Assembly (NCBI RefSeq): GCF_030127145.1
Contig: NZ_CP126158.1
Span: forward strand, 1,736,001-1,800,000
From: Halobaculum halobium
Lineage (GTDB): Archaea; Halobacteriota; Halobacteria; Halobacteriales; Haloferacaceae
Reading direction: 5' to 3'
DNA length: 64,000 nt
Shown: positions 12,167 to 59,185 of the stretch, in pieces
How positions within the stretch are numbered: the stretch's first letter is position 1
Layout: every line of letters starts with the position of its first letter
Position numbers and translations under genes: made by a program
The notes under the pieces: model-generated
The model's database searches: none
What the model saw: the letters and a program-made list of their open reading frames with translations, nothing else
What the model was told of the DNA's origin: nothing

Positions 12167-12342
12167 GTTCGTTTACCCGATGTGTTTGTGCTTAAAGCTA
12201 TCGCACGCAAATTCGGCCGTAGAAAGCTGTTGATCAGCTAATATGAGGTTTTCAATACTTCTGCTCGATCGAGGTCCGACCGCCGTCGATCTGCCGGAGC
12301 ACGGCGGAACCGTTTTCATTTGTGAGGACGGCGGATACCAAT

Positions 12343-13074
12343 ATGGTAGCCACTGTTCCAACCGGGGTCGACGGACTCGACTCTGTCCTCAACGGCGGTC
12401 TCGTCGAGAACGCGACGGTGCTCGTGAGCGGAAACCCCGGGACGGGGAAGTCCCTCTTCGGGATCCAATACCTCTATGACGGGGTCACTGACCACGACGA
12501 ACACGGGATCTACATCTCCTTCGAGGAAAATGAGGAGGATATCCGTCAGGCGGCCGAGTCGATCGGCTTCGACCGATGGGGCGATCTCGTCGACGAGGGG
12601 TCGATCAAGGTGTACGACAAACAGCACATGCTCCGCGAGGGCGACTTCTCGTCGGCGCTCGACACGCTGTTGGAGGACTTCGCGAACGCCTCCTACGACC
12701 GGCTGGTACTCGACTCGCTGACGATGTTCTCGCTGTTCTTCGAGAACGAGAAGGAAAAGCGAACGTACCTCCTGAAGTTCTCGGACATCCTCAAACAGAA
12801 CGGGCTCACGTCGCTGCTCATCAACGAGCAGGGCGCGGTGTTCCCGGAGACGGAGATCGGCCTGGAGAACTTCCTTACCGATGGGAACATCTACTTCATT
12901 CAGACGCCGACCGACTCCGGTGTCAACCGCTACGTCTGGGTGGCCAAGATGCGCAAGCAGGACATCGACACAGACATCTTCCCGATGGAGATCGACGAGG
13001 GCGGGATCAAGGTGTACGAGCGCGCTGGCGGGTTCTCGATGATGGGCCGGGACGGCCCGGACGACGGGTTCTGA
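12343..13074 (+). CDS. KaiC-like RecA-superfamily ATPase
   Basis: The 243-residue single-domain ATPase has Walker A GNPGTGKS at residues 30-37, the acidic SFEENEED pair expected for KaiC-type catalytic glutamates near 62, and a Walker B strand LVLDSLTMF near 120. The C-terminal VWVAKMRKQDIDTDIFPMEI resembles KaiC/RadA-like proteins. Start ATG 12343 is preferred over a GTG 21 bases upstream because a GTTTTCAT box lies 31 bases before it. It sits divergently from the HalX regulator at the edge of the archaellum region; related single-domain ATPases recur at 20122, 59186 and 60563. Its partner is unknown. Confidence 0.88.
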   Translation: MVATVPTGVDGLDSVLNGGLVENATVLVSGNPGTGKSLFGIQYLYDGVTDHDEHGIYISFEENEEDIRQAAESIGFDRWGDLVDEGSIKVYDKQHMLREGDFSSALDTLLEDFANASYDRLVLDSLTMFSLFFENEKEKRTYLLKFSDILKQNGLTSLLINEQGAVFPETEIGLENFLTDGNIYFIQTPTDSGVNRYVWVAKMRKQDIDTDIFPMEIDEGGIKVYERAGGFSMMGRDGPDDGF

Positions 13075-13110: not shown

Positions 13111-13452
13111 TCACCCGTCGGTCATCGTCCGCCACACGTCGTCGAGCTTGTTCTTCACCTCCGACCGCTCTTCCAACTCGACGGTTAACCCGTCTTGGAA
13201 CGTCACGTTCACACCGTCGACACACCGACGGTACACCTTGATGCGACGGTGCTCGTCGGAGAGCGGACGATCGTGGAGCTCCAACAGTTCGGTGTCCTCA
13301 AGCTCGTTGATCCGCCGGTAACAGGTGGCGATCGGTACGTCGAGCTGGTCCGACAGTTCCTGTGCAGACTTCGCCTCACCCGCCGCATCGAGAATCTCGG
13401 GGTTGTATTTCGTCCCCAGCACCTCGATGATCTCCTCATCGTCTGCAGGCAT
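13111..13452 (-). CDS. Winged-helix transcriptional regulator beside the archaellin
   Basis: The 113-residue protein contains a winged-helix domain (about residues 5-75): DEEIIEVLGTKYNPEILDAAGEAKSAQ in part, then the recognition region LDVPIATCYRRINELEDTEL and the wing SDEHRRIKVYRR. The C-terminal third looks like a dimerising segment ending VKNKLDDVW. The ATG at 13452 is chosen because CTTATC lies 31 bases upstream; a more distant in-frame start would overlap that box. It is divergent from the archaellin gene, and two copies of the dyad described at 13539-13599 lie between them, so it is the best local candidate for controlling the taxis regulon. That link is inference. Confidence 0.85.
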   Translation of the reverse strand: MPADDEEIIEVLGTKYNPEILDAAGEAKSAQELSDQLDVPIATCYRRINELEDTELLELHDRPLSDEHRRIKVYRRCVDGVNVTFQDGLTVELEERSEVKNKLDDVWRTMTDG

Positions 13453-13538
13453 AACTCTCAATACTGATTGTGCGTGTGATAAGCGTACCGCCTTCATTCC
13501 AGCTCCCTCGCCTGAATTTGGTACTGTTGACCTACCGG

Positions 13539-13599
13539 TATCTGTACCGATATTCGCCGTTCAGATATCTTTTCTGATAGGCGGCAGCGTAGGTTTAAA
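13539..13599 (+). promoter_or_regulatory. Archaellin promoter with two TATC-N6-GATA dyads
   Basis: Two perfect dyads occur: TATCTGTACCGATA at 13539-13552 and TATCTTTTCTGATA at 13566-13579, 27 bases apart. The nearer one starts exactly 28 bases before the TATA box TTTAAA (13594-13599). The predicted transcription start is about 13620, leaving a leader of roughly 45 bases, unlike the leaderless taxis promoters elsewhere in the window. Confidence 0.65.
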
Positions 13600-15309: not shown

Positions 15310-15343
15310 TTTCACAGCTGATAGTCGCGGGGGTGCGTTTATC
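15310..15343 (+). promoter_or_regulatory. cheY promoter with taxis dyad
   Basis: TTTCACAGCTGATA (15310-15323) starts exactly 28 bases before the TATA box TTTATC (15338-15343), and the cheY ATG follows 32 bases after the box. The 14-mer differs at one base from the one between cheB and cheW. A GGGAGGAT sequence lies just before the start codon as well. Confidence 0.6.
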
Positions 15344-15369: not shown

Positions 15370-15732
15370 ATGCCGACCAGCGTTCTGATCGCGGACGACT
15401 CGGAGTTCATGCGGAACCTCCTGCGGGAGATCCTCGAGGGGGAGTTCGAGATCGTCGGAGAGGCCGAAAACGGCGTGGAGGCGGTCGACCTCTACGGCGA
15501 GCACGCCCCCGACATTGTGATGATGGACATCGTCATGCCGATCCGCAACGGGATCGAGGCGACCACCGAGATCACCGACGAACATCCCGACGCGAGCGTC
15601 ATCATGTGTACGAGCGTCGGGCAGGAGGAGAAGATGAAAGCCGCGATCAAGGCGGGCGCGGAGGGGTACATCACGAAACCGTTCCAGAAGCCGAACGTGC
15701 TCGAAGCCATCAACGACGCCGTCCCCGCGTAG
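15370..15732 (+). CDS. cheY: Chemotaxis response regulator CheY
   Basis: A 120-residue stand-alone receiver domain with Asp9-Asp10, phospho-acceptor Asp53 in IVMMDIVMP, Thr81 in MCTSVGQ and Lys103 in ITKPFQKP. Phosphorylated archaeal CheY acts on the archaellum switch through CheF and ArlCDE. It starts the cheY-cheC-cheD operon, with cheC beginning 3 bases after its stop. It carries the taxis dyad promoter. Confidence 0.96.
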   Translation: MPTSVLIADDSEFMRNLLREILEGEFEIVGEAENGVEAVDLYGEHAPDIVMMDIVMPIRNGIEATTEITDEHPDASVIMCTSVGQEEKMKAAIKAGAEGYITKPFQKPNVLEAINDAVPA

Positions 15733-15734
15733 GG

Positions 15735-16934
15735 ATGTACGTCGACATCCAGTCGCTGGGGGAGTTTTCCGATCTCGCGAGCCAGGGCGCCGACCGGGCG
15801 GCGGACGCACTCGGACAGCTCGCCGGCGCGAACGTCTACGTCGACGTGACCGACGTGACGCTGATGGCCGCCGGTGACCTGCGGGAATCGTTCGCGGGCC
15901 GGGAGTTCGTGGGGGTCGAGATCGGACTGCAGGGCGGGATCAGCGGCCAGACCGTGATGGCGTTCGAGTTGGACGCCGCAGAGAGCCTCGTCGAGCGGCT
16001 GATGCCCGGCGCCGGCGACGGCGAGTTCGTTCGCAGCGGCGTCACCGAGGCGGGCAACATCATGACCTCGGGGTTCATCGACGGCTGGGCGGACCACCTC
16101 GGCGTCGCCATCGACATGACGCCGCCCGCGTACGTCCGCGCCTCTGGGACCGACATCCTCCCCGACGGCGCGTTCGACGACGACAGACAGGGCGTGTTCA
16201 TGTTCGAGTCGCAGGTCTCTTCGATGGACGAGGACCTCGAGTTCGCGATCTACATGCTGCCCGAGTACGCCGGGTTCACCGATATGCTCGGCCACGACGG
16301 CCCCGTCGGCGAGGCGGGCGACGCCGTTCCGGTGAACAAGCTGCCGACGTTCAACCGGATGACCGAGCGGGGCGCCAGCTCCGCCGCCGACAACATCACC
16401 ATGATGACGGGCACGGAGACGGACGTCGACGTCTCGCGGCTTCGGTTCGTTCCGGTACAGGACGTACCCGCCGAGTTGGGCAAAGAGACCGTCGCGGGAA
16501 CGGTGTTCGAGCTCCACGGCGACCCGAGCGGCTACCTCGCGATCCTCTTCGACGAGGCGTCGGCTGAGGAGGTCGCCGGCGGCATGATTCCCACCGAGAC
16601 CGAGCCGGGGATCGGCGACATGGAGAAAGGCGCGCTGCGAGAGCTGGGCAACATCATGACCTCGGGGTTCATCGACGGCTGGGCGAACGTGCTCGGCACG
16701 AGCATCGAACACACCCCGCCGCAGTTCGTCCACGACATGGGCTCGGCGGTGATGAGCCCCCTCGTGACCCGACTCGGCAAGACACAGGACCACGCGTTCA
16801 TCATCGACTCGACGGTCCGCACGCCCGACGGCAACGTGCGGTGCGACATCTACGCGCTCCCCGACCAGCGAGAGCTGGCGGCGGCGCTGGATCGCATCGA
16901 ACCGGCGGCGACCGACGGCGGTCTCCCTCGGTGA
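15735..16934 (+). CDS. cheC: CheC, two-domain CheY-P phosphatase
   Basis: The 399-residue protein contains two tandem CheC units. Each has the phosphatase helix with the Glu-x-x-Asn pair: TEAGNIMTSGFIDGWADHLG (Glu105, Asn108) and RELGNIMTSGFIDGWANVLG (Glu303, Asn306). Most bacterial CheC proteins are about half this length with both sites within one pseudo-symmetric domain. CheC removes phosphate from CheY and is stimulated by CheD, which is encoded next. Start is the ATG MYVDIQSLGEF three bases after the cheY stop. Confidence 0.93.
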   Translation: MYVDIQSLGEFSDLASQGADRAADALGQLAGANVYVDVTDVTLMAAGDLRESFAGREFVGVEIGLQGGISGQTVMAFELDAAESLVERLMPGAGDGEFVRSGVTEAGNIMTSGFIDGWADHLGVAIDMTPPAYVRASGTDILPDGAFDDDRQGVFMFESQVSSMDEDLEFAIYMLPEYAGFTDMLGHDGPVGEAGDAVPVNKLPTFNRMTERGASSAADNITMMTGTETDVDVSRLRFVPVQDVPAELGKETVAGTVFELHGDPSGYLAILFDEASAEEVAGGMIPTETEPGIGDMEKGALRELGNIMTSGFIDGWANVLGTSIEHTPPQFVHDMGSAVMSPLVTRLGKTQDHAFIIDSTVRTPDGNVRCDIYALPDQRELAAALDRIEPAATDGGLPR

Positions 16935-17613: not shown

Positions 17614-17647
17614 TATCGGGCACGATAATCCGCGGGATGGGTTTAAG
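17614..17647 (+). promoter_or_regulatory. arlCE promoter with taxis dyad
   Basis: TATCGGGCACGATA (17614-17627), within a longer palindrome TTATCG-GGCA-CGATAA, starts 28 bases before TTTAAG (17642-17647). The ATG at 17673 is 31 bases after the box, so the message is probably leaderless. The stretch from the dyad to the start codon closely resembles that of the arlI promoter, sharing GGTTTAAG, TCGGGGGTGT and GTAATG at identical spacing. Confidence 0.7.
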
Positions 17648-20924: not shown

Positions 20925-20958
20925 TATCGTCGATGATAGCTCGCGGGGAGGGTTTAAG
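20925..20958 (+). promoter_or_regulatory. arlI promoter with taxis dyad
   Basis: TATCGTCGATGATA (20925-20938) starts 28 bases before TTTAAG (20953-20958). An ATG lies 31 bases after the box at 20984, but it opens a short ORF rather than arlI. Compared base for base with the arlCE promoter, the 36 bases ending at TTTAAG match at 27 positions without gaps. Confidence 0.68.
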
Positions 20959-22749: not shown

Positions 22750-24498
22750 ATGAGCACGAACAGCGCATCCGCGTCCGACTTCTTCCCCGACTCCGCAGCG
22801 GAGCTCGCCGCCGATCTGGTCGCGTCGTACGACGCGCTGGACATGTCCAAGCGGAAGTACGTCGGCTACATCCTCGCGCCCTCGGCGGCGTTCTTCCTGC
22901 TCACGATCGTCGGGGCGTTCCTGCTCCCGCTGCCGCTGACGGTCCGGCTGCCGATCCCCGCGCTCGGGATCTTGATACTCGTCGCGGCGGTGTTCTACCC
23001 GAAACTGTACCTCAACGGACGACAGGTTGCCATCGAGAACCAGCTCCACCTGGTGATGACGCACATGACCGTGCTGTCGACGACGAACATCGACCGGATG
23101 GAGGTGTTTCGGACCCTCGCGACCGAGGAGGAGTACGGCGCCGCCGCCGACGAACTCGCGCGCGTCGTTCACCTCGTCGACACGTGGAACCAGTCGCTCG
23201 ACGACGCGCTGCGTCGCCGAGCGAAGGAGGTTCCCTCGGACGTGTTCTCGGACTTCTTCGACCGCCTCGGCTACACGATCGGCGCCGGGCAGACCCTCGA
23301 CGACTTCCTGCTGTCCGAGCAGGACGCGGTCATCCAGAACTACATCACGGTGTACGAGGGCGCACTGGCGAATCTGGAGGTGATGAAGGATCTGTACATG
23401 TCGATGATCCTCTCGATGACGTTCGCGCTGGTGTTCGCTATCGTCCTGCCGATCCTCACCGGCGACAACCCCACGCTCACCGTCTCTGCGGTCATCGTTC
23501 TGTTCATGCTGGTCCAGTTGGGCTTCTACGTCGTCATCCGGGCGATGTCGCCCCACGACCCCGTCTGGTTCCACTCCGAGGAGGGCGCCCCCTCCGACTT
23601 CCGTCTGTGGGCCAGTTTCGCGGTCGGCGTGTTCGGGACGGCCGCACTCGTCGTCTTCGTCGGTGCGGGGCTGTTCAACGTCGGGCCGGGACTGCGAGGG
23701 CTCCTCTTTTTCCTCGAAGACATCCCGCTCGCGCTGTACATCTGCGTCCCGATCTCGCCGATGGCTATCACCGGCGTGATGCTCCGGTTCGAGGAGCGCA
23801 ACATCGAGGAGCGCGACGGGGAGTTCCCCTCGTTCATCCGCGCGCTCGGCGCCGCCGAATCCGCCAAGCAGTCGACGACCGGCGACGTGCTCGCGACGCT
23901 CCACCAGAAGGACTTCGGCGCGCTCACGCCCGCTATCGTTCGGCTGTACCGACGACTTAACATCCGGATCAGCTCCGAGCAGGCGTGGTACACCTTCGCG
24001 ACCGACACCCGGTCGTACCTGATCCAGAAGTTCTCCGACATGTACCTCGAGGGGCGGTCGATGGGCGGTCGGCCGAAGCTGCTCGGGGAGCTCATCTCTC
24101 AGAACATGAACACCGTCATGCAATTGCGCGAGCAGCGCCGGCAGGCGACGGTGACGATGATCGGGCTGCTGTACGGGATCACCTCCGCGTCCGCGTTCGC
24201 GTTCTTCATCGGTCTGCAGGTCGTGAGCATTCTCGCGGACCTGTCTCAACAGTTCAACATCACCAACGCCGGCGGCGTCGGGAAGATCATCTACGCAGGG
24301 GTGTACGACATCGCGCTCATCGAGTTCCTGCTCTTGCTCGTCATCCTGTTCAACGCCGTCCTCTCGTCGGTGATGATCCGCACCATCGACGGCGGCAACA
24401 AGGCGAACGCGTACCTCCACTTCGTGCTCATGACGTGGCTCGGCTCGGGCGTCGCCATCTTCACCAAGCACCTCGTCAGCGCGATCCTCACGATCTGA
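22750..24498 (+). CDS. arlJ: Archaellum membrane platform protein ArlJ
   Basis: The 582-residue protein is a polytopic membrane protein of the TadC/GspF type. It has membrane segments near residues 37-80, 215-255, 285-345, and at the C-terminus (about 470-580), with cytoplasmic helical domains between them, for example ATEEEYGAAADELARVVHLV. ArlJ forms the membrane core on which ArlI acts. It is the last archaellum gene; the next gene on this strand is far away. Confidence 0.95.
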   Translation: MSTNSASASDFFPDSAAELAADLVASYDALDMSKRKYVGYILAPSAAFFLLTIVGAFLLPLPLTVRLPIPALGILILVAAVFYPKLYLNGRQVAIENQLHLVMTHMTVLSTTNIDRMEVFRTLATEEEYGAAADELARVVHLVDTWNQSLDDALRRRAKEVPSDVFSDFFDRLGYTIGAGQTLDDFLLSEQDAVIQNYITVYEGALANLEVMKDLYMSMILSMTFALVFAIVLPILTGDNPTLTVSAVIVLFMLVQLGFYVVIRAMSPHDPVWFHSEEGAPSDFRLWASFAVGVFGTAALVVFVGAGLFNVGPGLRGLLFFLEDIPLALYICVPISPMAITGVMLRFEERNIEERDGEFPSFIRALGAAESAKQSTTGDVLATLHQKDFGALTPAIVRLYRRLNIRISSEQAWYTFATDTRSYLIQKFSDMYLEGRSMGGRPKLLGELISQNMNTVMQLREQRRQATVTMIGLLYGITSASAFAFFIGLQVVSILADLSQQFNITNAGGVGKIIYAGVYDIALIEFLLLLVILFNAVLSSVMIRTIDGGNKANAYLHFVLMTWLGSGVAIFTKHLVSAILTI

Positions 24499-24558
24499 GT
24501 TCGCCCGAGTCGACGGCCATCCGACTCCGGTGTCACCTGCGGCATCCGTCGCCGTGGG

Positions 24559-24592
24559 TCTCCCAGCTGATACCGCGCACGAAACGGTTATG
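24559..24592 (+). promoter_or_regulatory. Orphan taxis-type promoter after arlJ
   Basis: In the 433-base gap 24499-24931, TCTCCCAGCTGATA (24559-24572) lies 28 bases before GTTATG (24587-24592), the same layout as the taxis promoters. No ATG or GTG is found at the expected 29-32 bases downstream. The first ATG (24670) opens a 124-codon ORF of non-conserved, Arg/Ser-rich sequence that runs into the cstA 3' end. I see no recognisable gene in this gap, so an untranslated RNA or gene remnant is possible. Confidence 0.4.
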
Positions 24593-24931
24593 CCGCCCTG
24601 CAGTCGACGTACAGACAGCGGCGGTCACGAGGCTACGGGAGTCGACCGCCGTCGGGTCGCGGCGAAGCCATGGGTAGGGACCTGGCGTTCGACGCGTCGA
24701 TCCGGCCGGGCGCCTCGGGTTCGAGGCGCTCGGGACGTTCTGTATCCGAGTCCTCGACGAGCGTGTGCCGTCCGAGCGGTCGGCGCCGCCCCGTAGACCG
24801 GCGAGATTCGACGGCGCAATCGCTGTCCGGCGAGCGCATCGAAAAAGTGGAACCGGACGCCCCGGCAGTCGACCGCTCAGTCGCCGACCTGGCCTCCGTC
24901 GGAACGGGTCCCGACGAGTTCGAGAATCGCG

Positions 24932-26770
24932 TTAGGACTTCTCACCGCCGTCGGTGGCGACCGCACCGCCCGTGCCTTCGCGGGCATTCTGGATGTTCTC
25001 GTACCCGATTTTCACCAGCGACAGCCCCAGGTACAGCAGGGTGAACGCGAGCACGATCTGGACGACCGCCGACAGCATCGCGAACGCTCCCGCATCGGCC
25101 ATCCACGCGTCGTTGAGGAACTTCGCGTAGATGTTGTCGTGGAGCGCGAGCCACAGCAGGGCCAGAGTCGTGATCGTCACCATGACCACCATCGGGCCGC
25201 CCGTGGAGATGAGCTGCTTCGAGTCGCTCCAGTTGGCGAGCCACACCGTCGCGGTGAGCAGCGCCAGCGCCGCGAGCAGCTGGTTCGCGCTGCCGAACAG
25301 CTGCCACAGCGTCAACCACGAGCCGCTCGTGATGAGGACGTACGCCGGAAGCGCCTGGACCACGGCGTTGCCGTAGCGGTCGGCCGCGAACGACTCGACC
25401 GACGACTCGGGCGTGCCGACGATCTCCTCCATCATGTACCGGCCCAGGCGGACGGCGGTGTCGGTCGACGTGAGCAGGAAGCTCACGAGCACCAGCGCCA
25501 TGAACGGGCCGCCGAAGGACGTCGGGATGCCGAAGCTCGTCAGGATGATCCCGCCGCCGGTCGCGAACGTCGGCAGCGCGAGGCCGATGCCGCCGCCGAC
25601 TTCGGGCGCGACGAGCGCGACGGTGATCAGCGCGACGGTGGCCAGCAGACCCTCGCCGAGCATCCCGCCGTAGCCGATGGCGCGGGCGTCGCTCTCCTTG
25701 TTTAGTTGCTTCGAGGTCGTCCCCGACGACACCAGCGAGTGGAACCCGGAGATGGTCCCGCACGCGATGGTGATGAACAGCAGCGGGAACAGCGGCGCGC
25801 CGGATCGACCGATGAACCCGTAGAACGGTTCGAGTTGCGTGGTGAGCGGCTGGCTCGGCGTGATCGCACCGATGCCGAGCGCGCCGCCGAGCGTGCCGAC
25901 GATGATCGCCAGCAGCGCCCCGCCGACCCCCGAGTACAGGAGGAACGACGAGAGGTAGTCACGCGGCTGCAGCAGCACCCACACCGGGAGCGCGCTCGCG
26001 AGCGCACCGTACACGAGGATGAGCGGCACCCACGCCGCGGTGTTGGCGCCGAGGGCCCCCGCGCCGGGGAGCCACGAGCCGCCGCTTCCGAGCAGCACGA
26101 ACGTCTCGGCGGGCGCGCGCGCGGCCGGCTCGAACAGCGCGACCGGGAACAGCGTTCCGACGTACACGCCAACGAACATCGCGGCGACGAACGCGATCGT
26201 CCCCGGGATGAACGAGAGGTTCAGTTGGTACAGGTACACGCCGAACAGCACCGCGAGCCCGATGTAGATCAGGCTCGCCGTCGCTGCCTCGGGGTACGCG
26301 TTGAACACGATCGCCACGACGAGCGCGAACACCGCGACGACCAGGATGATCGTCAGGAACGCGAACCACAGCAGCATGTTCTTGCCGCGCTCGCCCACGT
26401 ACTCCCCGATGATGTACCCGATCGACTTCCCCTCGTGTCGGAGACTCGCCGACAGCGAGACGAAGTCGTGGACCGACCCCATCAGCGGGTTGCCGATGGC
26501 GATCCACAACAACGCGGGCACCCAGCCCCACACCACACCCGCGGTGATGGGGCCCACGATGGGCGCGCCGCCAGCGATACTCGAATAGTGATGCCCCAAG
26601 AGCACCGGCTTTTTCGCCGGAACGTACTCCTGTCCGTCCTCGTATTTGTGTGCCGGCGTCTCGCGGTCATCGTCCAGTTCGACGAACTGAGCGAGATACC
26701 GTGAGTAGCCGAGGTAGCCCGCACTGAACAGTACGAGTACCCCGATCACCAGCCACATTGCTGCCACCAT
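24932..26770 (-). CDS. cstA: Carbon starvation protein A family transporter
   Basis: The 612-residue protein is a polytopic membrane transporter with roughly 15-17 predicted helices. CstA family landmarks include HHYSSIAGGAPIVGPI near residue 60, NPLMGSVHDF near 93, and SGFHSLVSSGTTSKQL near 345. Bacterial relatives (CstA, BtsT) take up peptides or pyruvate; the substrate here is unknown. It may start at MVAAMWL (26770) or MWL four codons later. It has an A/T-rich promoter. Confidence 0.93.
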   Translation of the reverse strand: MVAAMWLVIGVLVLFSAGYLGYSRYLAQFVELDDDRETPAHKYEDGQEYVPAKKPVLLGHHYSSIAGGAPIVGPITAGVVWGWVPALLWIAIGNPLMGSVHDFVSLSASLRHEGKSIGYIIGEYVGERGKNMLLWFAFLTIILVVAVFALVVAIVFNAYPEAATASLIYIGLAVLFGVYLYQLNLSFIPGTIAFVAAMFVGVYVGTLFPVALFEPAARAPAETFVLLGSGGSWLPGAGALGANTAAWVPLILVYGALASALPVWVLLQPRDYLSSFLLYSGVGGALLAIIVGTLGGALGIGAITPSQPLTTQLEPFYGFIGRSGAPLFPLLFITIACGTISGFHSLVSSGTTSKQLNKESDARAIGYGGMLGEGLLATVALITVALVAPEVGGGIGLALPTFATGGGIILTSFGIPTSFGGPFMALVLVSFLLTSTDTAVRLGRYMMEEIVGTPESSVESFAADRYGNAVVQALPAYVLITSGSWLTLWQLFGSANQLLAALALLTATVWLANWSDSKQLISTGGPMVVMVTITTLALLWLALHDNIYAKFLNDAWMADAGAFAMLSAVVQIVLAFTLLYLGLSLVKIGYENIQNAREGTGGAVATDGGEKS

Positions 26771-35374: not shown

Positions 35375-37180
35375 TCAGACGCCGAAGTTGAACCCGCCGT
35401 ACTCGTCTTCGTCCTCGGTCCCGTTCGGTTCCTCGGCCGGCTCAGTCGCCGCTTCGGTCCGCTCGTCCGGTTCCTCGACCGATTCGATGGTGACGCCGTC
35501 GCCCTCGTCGCCATCGTCGTTCTCCTTGCGAACCGCGGACGCGTCGATGGTGATCCCGCCGTCGGTTCGGAACTCGTGGTCCGACTCGGCGTCCGATCCG
35601 TCGGTCGTGGCAGCGCTGAACCCGGCGCTTTCGGCGTTCTTCCCGCGAAGATCGGCCACGCGATCGGACAGCTCGGCGATGGCCTCGCTCTGATCGTCGG
35701 TCGCGGCGACGATGCGGTCGGCGGCGTGTTCGGTCTCGGTCGACCGCTCGCGGACCTCTTCGATAGTCGCAGTGAGCTCCTCGACGGTGGCCGCCTGATC
35801 GTCGGTCGCACGCGATACCTCGGTGATGCCGTCGGCGGCCTGATCGATCGACGACGCGATGTCCTCGAACGCCTCCAACACGTCGTCGATCTGGTCGGCC
35901 GCGTGGTCGATCTGCTGGTGGCTCTGCTCGGCGGCGACGACCGTCGAGTCGGTCTGGCTCTGGAGCTCCTCGATGTTCCCCGTGATCTGCTCGGTGTGCT
36001 GGCGGGTCTCGTCAGCGAGGGTCTTCACCTCCTCGGCGACGACGGCGAACCCGTCGCCGTCCTTGCCCGCGCGGGCGGCCTCGATGTTCGCGTTGAGCGC
36101 GAGCAGGTTCGTCTGCTCGGCCACGTCGGAGATGACCTCCACGACCGCCTCGATGTCGTCCATCCGGTCGCCGAGATCGGTAACTGAATCGACGAGCTCC
36201 TCGCCGATATCGGTCACCTCCTCGGTCGCCTCGCGTGCGTCTTCGCTGGCATCGAGCCCGTCGGTAGCTGCCTCGCGCGCCTGTCCGGCGGCTGTGTCGA
36301 CCTCTTCGGCGGTGGCGGCGACCTCCTCCATCGACGCGGAGAACGTCTGCATCTCCGAAACGCCCTCCGAGAGGAGGTCGTTCTGTTCACCGACGTTCTC
36401 GGCGATCTCCTCGGCGGCGTCGACCGCCTCCTCGACGGAGTCCTCCAGCCGCACGGTCCCCTCGTCGACGCCGGCGGCCGTCTCTTGGAAGGCGGCAGCC
36501 ATCTCGTTCAGGTCGTCCACCACCGACAGGAGCCGTTCGTCGAGACAGTCGTCCTCGAACTGGGCGCGCTCGCTGAGATCCCCGGCCATCAACGAGGCCA
36601 TCGTCGCGCTGAGTTCGTTCACCAGCGCTTCGGCGGCCTCCTGGCGCTGTCTCTCCTCGGTCCTGTCCTGGACCGTCTCGACGACCGCGATCAACTCGTC
36701 GTCTTCGTACAGCGGCATCGCGCTGAAGTAGATGTGGCGCTCGTCGCCGTACTGATCGGTCATCACGCTGGTGTCGGCGTAGAGCCACGTCGACTCGTCT
36801 TTCAGGTCGACACCGAACTCCTCGTGGACCGACTTCGGGTGCTCCAGCACCTTGTCCGCGAGCGTCTGCGCACGACGGCCGTCAGGGTAGAACATCTCGC
36901 TGGCGTGTTCGTGCCCGATCGCCTCCTCCGCGGTCGCCCCGGTCAGCTCCTCGATCGCCGAGTTCCAGGCGATGATCTCGCCGTCGCTGTCCACCATGAA
37001 CACGGCGGAGCCGACGCCGTCGAGCAGCAGGTCGTCGTCGATGTTCAGTTCGTCGTCCGAGTCCGCCTCCTGTGTCGGGATCGGTTCGCCGTTCGCCTCG
37101 ACAGTTACCCCACCGTCGGCCAGTGGCTCTTCTTGAGCCGTCCCGGCGACCCACGCGCGGAGGCGGGTAAGTAATGACAT
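35375..37180 (-). CDS. Soluble PAS-domain chemotaxis transducer (MCP)
   Basis: The 601-residue receptor has no membrane helix. A PAS domain (about residues 52-175, with AVFMVDSDGEIIAWNSAIEELTG in outline) precedes a HAMP-like/helical segment and a methyl-accepting coiled coil (about 225-500). The conserved signalling tip is VAEQTNLLALNANIEAARAG. It is followed by an acidic, disordered tail of about 90 residues. It likely senses an internal redox or metabolic cue and signals to CheA-CheW. The ATG at 37180 is fixed by an ATTAAA box 30 bases upstream; an ATG at 37213 would overlap that box. The promoter carries the taxis dyad. Confidence 0.93.
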   Translation of the reverse strand: MSLLTRLRAWVAGTAQEEPLADGGVTVEANGEPIPTQEADSDDELNIDDDLLLDGVGSAVFMVDSDGEIIAWNSAIEELTGATAEEAIGHEHASEMFYPDGRRAQTLADKVLEHPKSVHEEFGVDLKDESTWLYADTSVMTDQYGDERHIYFSAMPLYEDDELIAVVETVQDRTEERQRQEAAEALVNELSATMASLMAGDLSERAQFEDDCLDERLLSVVDDLNEMAAAFQETAAGVDEGTVRLEDSVEEAVDAAEEIAENVGEQNDLLSEGVSEMQTFSASMEEVAATAEEVDTAAGQAREAATDGLDASEDAREATEEVTDIGEELVDSVTDLGDRMDDIEAVVEVISDVAEQTNLLALNANIEAARAGKDGDGFAVVAEEVKTLADETRQHTEQITGNIEELQSQTDSTVVAAEQSHQQIDHAADQIDDVLEAFEDIASSIDQAADGITEVSRATDDQAATVEELTATIEEVRERSTETEHAADRIVAATDDQSEAIAELSDRVADLRGKNAESAGFSAATTDGSDAESDHEFRTDGGITIDASAVRKENDDGDEGDGVTIESVEEPDERTEAATEPAEEPNGTEDEDEYGGFNFGV

Positions 37181-37204
37181 ACTCCTACGGCTCTGCGAAT
37201 CCTG

Positions 37205-37238
37205 TTTAATCATTACCGTCTAAGAATCACTCCCGATA
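37205..37238 (-). promoter_or_regulatory. Transducer promoter with taxis dyad
   Basis: On the minus strand TATCGGGAGTGATT (37238-37225) starts 28 bases before ATTAAA (37210-37205), and the transducer ATG lies 30 bases after that box. The right half has one mismatch (GATT for GATA). Confidence 0.55.
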
Positions 37239-51088: not shown

Positions 51089-51122
51089 TTTCATCGCTGA
51101 GCATCGGTGCGAAACCGTCAAG
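51089..51122 (+). promoter_or_regulatory. cheF promoter with half-conserved taxis dyad
   Basis: TTTCATCGCTGAGC (51089-51102) starts 28 bases before GTCAAG (51117-51122), and the cheF ATG follows 30 bases after the box. The left half is intact and the right half matches only GA. Note its similarity to the cheY and cheW sites across TTTCA--GCTGA. Confidence 0.5.
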
Positions 51123-51146: not shown

Positions 51147-52013
51147 ATGAGCGAGACGGTCGTCGCCGACTTCGTCGGTCGGTTCTTCGCGCCCGGCGTC
51201 GAGGGCGAACCCCCGACGGGGCGGATCATCCTGAGTCAGCGGCGGCTCGTGCTCGCGGCCGATGGCTCCAAGGAGACGATCCCGCTGTCGTCGGTGTTCG
51301 ACGTGAAGGTGGGACAGGTGCCGCCGGAGATGGCGGGCTATTTCAACGACACCGTCACCGTCGCGTATCGAGCCGACGACCGCCGCGGCGTCGCCGCCAT
51401 CGAGGGCAACGACACAAACATCGACCGGTTCGCGACGGTGCTGTTCAAAGTACTTCTCAACGGAACGACTGCGCTGGTCCGTCACCCGGCGAAGATCGGC
51501 GGACGCGTCGTCGAGACGGACGCGCACAAGGCTCGGCTCGACGTAACCCAGGGAGCGCTCTCGTTCGAGGGCTGCCCGGAGCCGTTCACCGTCGACCTGC
51601 GCAGCGTCATCTCCGTCGAGCGCGCTCAGCGCGACCTGGACAACGGCACCCACCCCGTCATCTCGTTTCGGCACATCGAGGACGGCACCGCTGTCACCTC
51701 CCAAGTCGGCCTGGACTCCGGGCGGCTCACGAACGTCCTCGGCCGGTACATCCGGCTGCGCTACGCGGACGTGCAGGAGGAGTTGGCGGACGTCGAACTC
51801 GGCGAGGCGGAGACGGAGGTGCTCGTGGCCGCCTACTCGGCTGGCTCGGGCGTCTCGTTGAACAAGGTGGTCGACATCGAGCCTCAGCGGCTCACCATGC
51901 TACTGAACGGTCTCATCGACGACGGACTACTCGTCGACAGCGGCGAGGGAACCGAACTCACCGCCAAGGGACGCGTGATCGTCGGTCAGCGGATCGAGTC
52001 GGTCAACACCTGA
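51147..52013 (+). CDS. cheF: CheF, archaeal taxis-to-archaellum adaptor (copy 1)
   Basis: The 288-residue protein matches CheF (DUF439), which in Halobacterium links CheY to the archaellum accessory proteins and is essential for switching. Two tandem N-terminal beta domains are seen: GRIILSQRRLVLAADGSKETIPLSSV and ARLDVTQGALSFEG. The C-terminal winged-helix part has EAETEVLVAAYSAGSGVSLNKV. It converges with a second CheF gene. It starts at an ATG 30 bases after its TATA box. Confidence 0.92.
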   Translation: MSETVVADFVGRFFAPGVEGEPPTGRIILSQRRLVLAADGSKETIPLSSVFDVKVGQVPPEMAGYFNDTVTVAYRADDRRGVAAIEGNDTNIDRFATVLFKVLLNGTTALVRHPAKIGGRVVETDAHKARLDVTQGALSFEGCPEPFTVDLRSVISVERAQRDLDNGTHPVISFRHIEDGTAVTSQVGLDSGRLTNVLGRYIRLRYADVQEELADVELGEAETEVLVAAYSAGSGVSLNKVVDIEPQRLTMLLNGLIDDGLLVDSGEGTELTAKGRVIVGQRIESVNT

Positions 52014-58527: not shown

Positions 58528-58581
58528 ATTGAAGACACCGCCCCGAATTTCACGGCTGATACCTCGTGCGCTACCGTTAAG
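58528..58581. promoter_or_regulatory. Shared divergent operator of cheB and cheW
   Basis: TTTCACGGCTGATA (58548-58561) starts 28 bases before the cheW box GTTAAG (58576-58581). Read on the other strand it is TATC-N6-GAAA, starting 28 bases before the cheB box TTCAAT (58533-58528). Start codons lie 30 bases after each box (cheW at 58606, the cheB mini-ORF at 58503). One dyad therefore has the same geometry toward both promoters. Confidence 0.7.
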
Positions 58582-59128: not shown

Positions 59129-59162
59129 TATCACTGCTGAGTCTCAGGGAGCAGTCCTTATC
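59129..59162 (+). promoter_or_regulatory. Promoter of the RAD55-like gene with half-conserved taxis dyad
   Basis: TATCACTGCTGAGT (59129-59142) starts 28 bases before CTTATC (59157-59162), and the ATG at 59186 is 29 bases after the box. The left half is intact and the right half is GAGT instead of GATA. Confidence 0.5.
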
Positions 59163-59185
59163 TGCCCCCTCATACCGTAGTGACC

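Follow-up and report, generated by a model that had tools for sequence, protein, structure and literature searches.

The site under study is the gap between arlJ (22750-24498) and cstA (24932-26770, minus strand) of Halobaculum halobium. Positions given without a genome handle refer to the window, that is, the whole stretch of 64,000 nucleotides that was analysed. The gap contains a dyad with a TATA-like box, a conserved block of about 80 nt and, on the opposite strand, a terminator-like hairpin behind cstA. Its features are listed here.

24559-24572, plus strand: dyad, very probably CsmR-type (TATC-N6-GATA class), TCTCCCAGCTGATA, found with 0 mismatches.
24580-24592, plus strand: BRE-like CGAAAC and TATA-like GGTTATG (24586-24592), 13 nt past the dyad, from sequence.
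24616-24618, plus strand: predicted transcription start, 26-28 nt past the A of the TATA-like box, placed by analogy with leaderless genes that have the same promoter.
24616-24696, plus strand: conserved block, predicted small RNA; mean pairwise identity 0.82 over 9 genomes, covariance model R1.
24618-24652, plus strand: predicted hairpin 1 (GCGGCGGUC / GACCGCCGU) with an invariant GGGAG in the loop, from fold and alignment.
24654-24703, plus strand: predicted hairpin 2, with basal stem GGGUC/GAUCC, inner stem CGAAGCCA/UGGCGUUCG and the 7-nt loop GUAGGGA at 24674-24680, from the fold.
24710-24729, plus strand: possible 3'-end hairpin in this species, GCGCCTC-loop-GAGGCGC, suggested by sequence and fold.
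24849-24866, minus strand: terminator-like hairpin followed by TTTTT, behind cstA, from sequence.

The initial annotation had described a taxis-type promoter at this position, and its layout was recovered exactly: TCTCCCAGCTGATA occupies 24559-24572 and GTTATG occupies 24587-24592. The reported match to the cheY site was also confirmed, as CAGCTGATA is present exactly twice in the window, at this site and at 15315 before cheY. Taken alone, GTTATG occurs in the window at chance level (3 found vs. 3.8 expected), while CAGCTGATA with at most one mismatch is mildly enriched (9 found vs. 2.5 expected). The part that is not due to chance is the arrangement, in which the dyad is followed after 13 nt by a GNTTA box; in the cluster regions examined, the archaellin, cheY, arlCE-like and arlI genes have the same dyad-to-box spacing. 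We further scored the site with a promoter matrix trained only on protein-gene promoters from the window and the relatives' clusters, with the RNA-gene sites held out. The held-out score of the site at 24559 is 22.1, which places it 8th in the window when the positions of both strands are ranked together, and this value was reached by none of 9,999,690 random positions (first-order Markov), the random maximum being 19.1. This test is clean for the 24559 site and not for the motif as such, because the pattern that supplied the training sites was drawn up after the first sites had been seen. One carrier genome, G002, has a weak promoter, with a matrix score of 14.7. No bacterial sigma-70 promoters were found, a class that we judged irrelevant here.

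In Haloferax volcanii, the winged-helix protein CsmR regulates genes of the archaellum and of chemotaxis, and ChIP-seq of this regulator was reported in a June 2026 paper (PMC13286277). The CsmR motif obtained there, TATCA(N4)TGATA, adjoins the TATA box before arl and che genes, and the paper leaves undecided whether CsmR is an activator only or has a dual role (PMC13286277). The dyad at 24559 agrees with 8 of the 10 defined letters of this published consensus (each of the 9 genomes with the site has 8-9 of the 10), and a csmR-like gene lies in the archaellum/chemotaxis cluster of the window; the promoter called a taxis promoter before is therefore very probably of the CsmR type. The csmR-like gene, assigned by Pfam and by position, sits between a KaiC-like gene and the archaellin gene, as described for hvo_1209. 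The candidate regulator gene and the other CsmR-type promoters, recognised by pattern and matrix, are the following.

13111-13497, minus strand: candidate csmR homologue, a small winged-helix protein gene divergent from the archaellin gene (Pfam HTH_20, E 2e-8).
13566-13597, plus strand: CsmR-type promoter of the archaellin gene.
15310-15341, plus strand: CsmR-type promoter of cheY.
17614-17645, plus strand: CsmR-type promoter of the arlCE-like gene.
20925-20956, plus strand: CsmR-type promoter of arlI (arlI-arlJ).
37207-37238, minus strand: CsmR-type promoter of the chemoreceptor gene at 35375-37213 (minus strand).
58548-58579, plus strand: CsmR-type promoter of cheW.

This promoter class is a genuine one. 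A loose dyad-box pattern was matched 44 times in 11 cluster regions, each 19 kb long (that of the window and those of ten relatives), where random sequence would give 0.1 matches. Every match lies on the coding strand and, judged by its position, precedes an arl or che gene or the Halobaculum RNA; the cluster region of G010 gave no match.

Several further sites were observed. The matrix picks out weaker CsmR-like sites at 51089-51120, before cheF (51147), at 59129-59160, before a gene starting near 59180, and near 12224 on the minus strand, before a response-regulator/HalX gene. The cheW dyad (58548-58561) scores on the opposite strand too (58561 minus, 22.15), so that it may serve two divergent promoters. 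Elsewhere in the genome, one CsmR-type site (G000:C1:1164458-1164489, minus strand) lies before a tubulin-like gene, judged from its sequence to be of the CetZ type, which would tie archaellum control to cell shape; another (G000:C1:1914357-1914388) lies before a frame starting MLLVVTYSRGARTTLRNVCRSHGDTVVRRFGRAALF. Additionally, about 5 kb left of the window (G000:C1:1731029-1731175), a CsmR-type promoter precedes a leaderless 30-aa single-span peptide, MNMKQMSALSVGMLCVLALGAAALVAVQVI. This peptide was found in 10 of 11 Halobaculum genomes, in all 10 with the dyad upstream, and a search of 9 other genomes did not recover it; the one Halobaculum genome without it is G010, which also lacks a whole arlJ. 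It is possibly a small motility protein.

Behind the promoter at 24559, the sequence is conserved. When the gap was compared by blastn with 60 genomes (Halobaculum halobium and 59 related genomes), 23 of them gave matches, including short chance matches elsewhere, that of G005 among them; the strong matches cover about 24614-24704 in 8 of the 10 other Halobaculum genomes and always lie just past arlJ. Relatives were inspected for a gene at this position, as the initial annotation had proposed. Of the 10 Halobaculum genomes in which arlJ is complete, Halobaculum halobium among them, 9 have dyad, box and block together. Mean pairwise identity over these 9 genomes is 0.66 for the promoter and 0.82 for the block, compared with 0.32 for the 23-nt spacer from box to start, 0.23 before the promoter and 0.34 after the block. 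For arlJ the corresponding value is 0.91 overall and 0.725 at 4-fold sites, and the block is thus better conserved than the 4-fold sites of its neighbour. The spacing is fixed as well: the GCTGATA half-site lies anywhere from 67 to 205 nt past the arlJ stop across genomes, yet the distances from dyad to box to block are rigid, and the block starts 23-27 nt past the TATA-like box in all 9 carriers. Since leaderless genes behind CsmR-type promoters start at about the same distance past the box, the block begins where transcription would be expected to start. Two conserved footprints that are separated and flanked by drifted DNA therefore point to a promoter plus an RNA gene.

There is no conserved reading frame in this block. 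In Halobaculum halobium, ATG, GTG and TTG are absent 18-40 nt past the box, in agreement with the earlier statement that no start codon follows at leaderless distance; such a codon is absent in 6 of the 9 carriers, and the frames in the other three comprise 2, 16 and 21 codons. The gap was also correctly described as having no recognised gene, as none of the 4 ORFs tested has a Pfam match and no Rfam family was matched (none at gathering level over the whole window, none at E<=1 over 24490-24950). In the 9-genome alignment, indels disrupt the frame in the loop of hairpin 1. An ATG inside the block encodes MGRDL and is followed by unrelated sequence, with MGRD changed to VGRG in G002. A coding reading of the block was rejected on the basis of the start-codon, frame and indel checks. 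The locus combines its own promoter with conserved non-coding sequence, as a haloarchaeal intergenic small RNA gene would. The earlier suggestion of a small RNA is well supported by this comparison, as 9 of 11 Halobaculum genomes keep promoter and block together as a single conserved unit. We consider it very likely that the site serves as promoter for a small RNA gene in Halobaculum, and, to judge from the promoter sequence, there is a strong probability, slightly below that, that the RNA is controlled by CsmR or its equivalent.

The putative RNA likely folds into two hairpins, the fold predicted for the Halobaculum halobium sequence. The GGGAG of loop 1 is found in all 9 genomes and the AGGGA of loop 2 in 8; CCATGGGTAGGGACCTGG, which surrounds loop 2, is identical in 8 of the 9, and G002 differs at three letters. 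The basal stem of hairpin 2 in G001, misaligned in one alignment, is kept as GGATC/GATCC when read by eye. The consensus fold has 26 pairs, 2 of them with changes on both sides and both in hairpin 1, and 93.6% of the cells in the alignment are paired, a share that does not exceed 52.9% in controls with shifted partners. Covariation is weak, as the percentage paired, the number of double-changed cells and the covariation score are each equalled or exceeded in 29-30 of 500 shuffles, and the count of further pair types is no higher than in any shuffle. The folding energies (z = -1.8 for the window sequence, +0.8 to -1.5 for 8 genomes) are ordinary for such GC-rich DNA, and among 8 of the 9 genomes folded singly at RNA length the two-hairpin fold is not the best one in G002 and G008. 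As for the 3' end, a T4-T5 run is seen by eye 42-45 nt past the core start in 4 of the 9 genomes; the hairpin at 24710-24729 of Halobaculum halobium is followed by no T4 run.

The distribution of the block was examined at several depths. Across 170 genomes of the family, model R1 gave E values of 5.5e-11 or better in 9 of the 11 from Halobaculum and no convincing match in the other 159. Weak R1 matches (E 0.011-0.084) occur in six other genomes and at second places in G001 and G003, and the core is present within 4 substitutions at none of these 8 loci. A search for the 16-nt core with at most one mismatch over 391 genomes of the class gave 8 exact matches, all in Halobaculum, and 3 single-mismatch matches elsewhere, no more than the reversed control. 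A scan of genome contigs for the core returned 26 stretches, among them three records from Halobaculum; the remaining matches were scattered and for the most part bacterial. Within the genus, the RNA is absent from G010, which has only a 61-residue match to arlJ, and from G005, which has a whole arlJ. Since G005 is nested among carriers in a tree of arlI-arlJ (13 rows), it has probably lost the RNA; its cheY, arlCE and arlI promoters are intact nonetheless. Because the cluster is present there without the RNA, G005 offers a natural control, and the locus is a precise, small and deletable target.

We weighed other explanations against the RNA gene. The initial annotation had suggested that the site might be the remnant of a lost gene, and by this account the promoter belonged to a former gene after arlJ, with a transcript that is now functionless. 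As for which gene, cheF lies directly past arlJ in four other genera (G031, G064, G015 and G035), behind a TTATC-N6-GATA site in G031 and G064; Haloferax volcanii has an ArlC...J/CheF2 unit (PMC13286277), and cheF of Halobaculum halobium is now found at 51147-52007, 27 kb from the RNA site. Because cheF follows arlJ elsewhere, in two genera behind a like site, the promoter may have descended from an arlJ-cheF arrangement, although the genera nearest by arlJ (g16, g19 and g9) have neither cheF nor a CsmR-type site past arlJ in the stretches read. Such a history could account for the origin of the promoter but not for its upkeep: the promoter is kept where its surroundings have drifted, and the block exceeds the 4-fold-site identity of arlJ. 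The suggestion may thus hold for where the promoter came from and fails for what the locus now contains, because the RNA block itself is conserved; as a full explanation we regard it as improbable. We likewise see little chance that a small protein is translated from the short frame at the ATG at 24670 (MGRDLAF...). Eight of the 9 genomes keep this ATG and the remaining one has GTG, which can likewise serve as a start, and at the other CsmR-type promoter, 5 kb to the left of the window, the product is indeed a conserved leaderless 30-aa peptide. However, after five to seven codons the frames become dissimilar and are of unequal length, save in the near-identical G006 and G009; indels of 1-3 nt follow the block, there is no Pfam match, and the conservation already lies ahead of the ATG and on either side of it agrees with strands of the hairpins.

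The gap could also act at the DNA level, with the block as a protein-binding element such as a transcription roadblock or an insulator between arlJ and cstA. Its richness in inverted repeats and its place between converging operons would suit this role, to which we nevertheless give very little weight, as its orientation is constant, it keeps a constant distance to a promoter aimed at it, and its first conserved base is the expected transcription start. Highly improbable is a transcript that reads into the 3' end of cstA and regulates it as an antisense RNA, an option raised in the initial annotation that the comparison does not support. It is true that cstA converges on the RNA in all 9 carriers, and Haloferax volcanii offers a precedent in hvo_1211s, which overlaps the 3' half of cirA (PMC13286277). 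Conservation stops near 24696, however, and cstA is followed by a terminator-like hairpin of its own (24866-24849), so that the two transcripts should converge without overlap; the gap between RNA and cstA drifts in length and sequence, and G005 keeps cstA-like sequence past arlJ without the RNA.

The reading we prefer, with a probability of about 0.78, is that the CsmR-type promoter at 24559-24592 drives a two-hairpin RNA, made together with the archaellum and chemotaxis proteins and most likely acting in trans. Specifically, the CsmR-type site and the BRE/TATA box would start a transcript at about 24616-24618, which would fold into two hairpins presenting GGGAG in loop 1 and GUAGGGA in loop 2, and would end about 80-130 nt on, ahead of the converging cstA transcript. 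The G-rich loops may then act in trans on mRNAs inside or outside the cluster and so tune the motility programme. That this would happen by base pairing has, in our assessment, an even chance. Searches with 7-nt seeds gave no conserved complementary site specific to carriers in the cluster regions, pairing either loop with six start regions gave duplex energies no better than shuffled loops did, and the 11-mer GGTCCCTACCC matched only the RNA itself across the Halobaculum halobium genome.

The RNA could instead be a decoy that titrates a putative archaeal RNA-binding protein recognising GGGA-type sites on motility mRNAs, a logic that would here be tied to the archaellum regulon and whose counterpart is the bacterial CsrB system; we hold this to be unlikely. 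At the junction of the cheY stop and the cheC start (15725-15745), all 9 RNA carriers have GTAGGGATG and G005 has GTAGGAATG; the loop 2 heptamer GUAGGGA spans this junction in 9 of 9 carriers, with GUAGGAA in G005. For the decoy this is a weak hint, against which stand the change of the RNA loop to GGAGGGG in G002 and our estimate that about one 7-mer in common over 19 kb is to be expected by chance.

Several described RNAs can be set beside the predicted Halobaculum RNA, for which we found no description in the open-licence literature, judged by title or abstract start among the matches listed. One of them is hvo_1211s, a RosR-linked regulatory RNA in the archaellum network of Haloferax volcanii, whose partial deletion leads to hypermotility (PMC13286277). 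It is about 420 nt long, complementary to cirA and proposed there to be repressed by RosR (PMC13286277), whereas the Halobaculum RNA, of a predicted 80-130 nt, lies past arlJ, overlaps no gene and has a CsmR-type site. An antisense RNA to a cirA-type gene was also considered and rejected, the KaiC-like (cirA-type) gene of the window being located at 12322-13074, more than 11 kb away. Swarming phenotypes are described for sRNA63 and other intergenic sRNAs of Haloferax volcanii, and a negative regulatory role in motility and chemotaxis has been proposed for sRNA63 (PMC3956466); sRNA132 is described as found only in Haloferax (PMC6560208). By these partial descriptions, sRNA63 and sRNA132 resemble the Halobaculum RNA in being intergenic, haloarchaeal and genus-restricted or poorly conserved, but the accessible texts describe no link of the Haloferax intergenic sRNAs to a CsmR promoter (PMC3956466, PMC6560208). 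For the CsmR regulon of Haloferax volcanii itself, the targets named in the accessible text are protein genes, and no RNA gene with a dyad is described there (PMC13286277). On the control of archaeal motility after transcription, the CsmR paper has, in its accessible part, one RNA that is tied to another regulator (PMC13286277). In bacteria, Escherichia coli has the sigma28-dependent flagellar sRNAs UhpU, MotR, FliX and FlgO, which differ in deriving from mRNA untranslated regions and in involving a sigma factor and, to judge by the paper's keywords, Hfq (PMC10578931). Homology to these is not expected. The likeness is functional only, in that an sRNA is placed under a motility regulator along with the flagellar genes (PMC10578931). 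If the Halobaculum RNA is made, the archaeal swimming programme would have an RNA output of its own master switch, like bacterial flagellar regulons.
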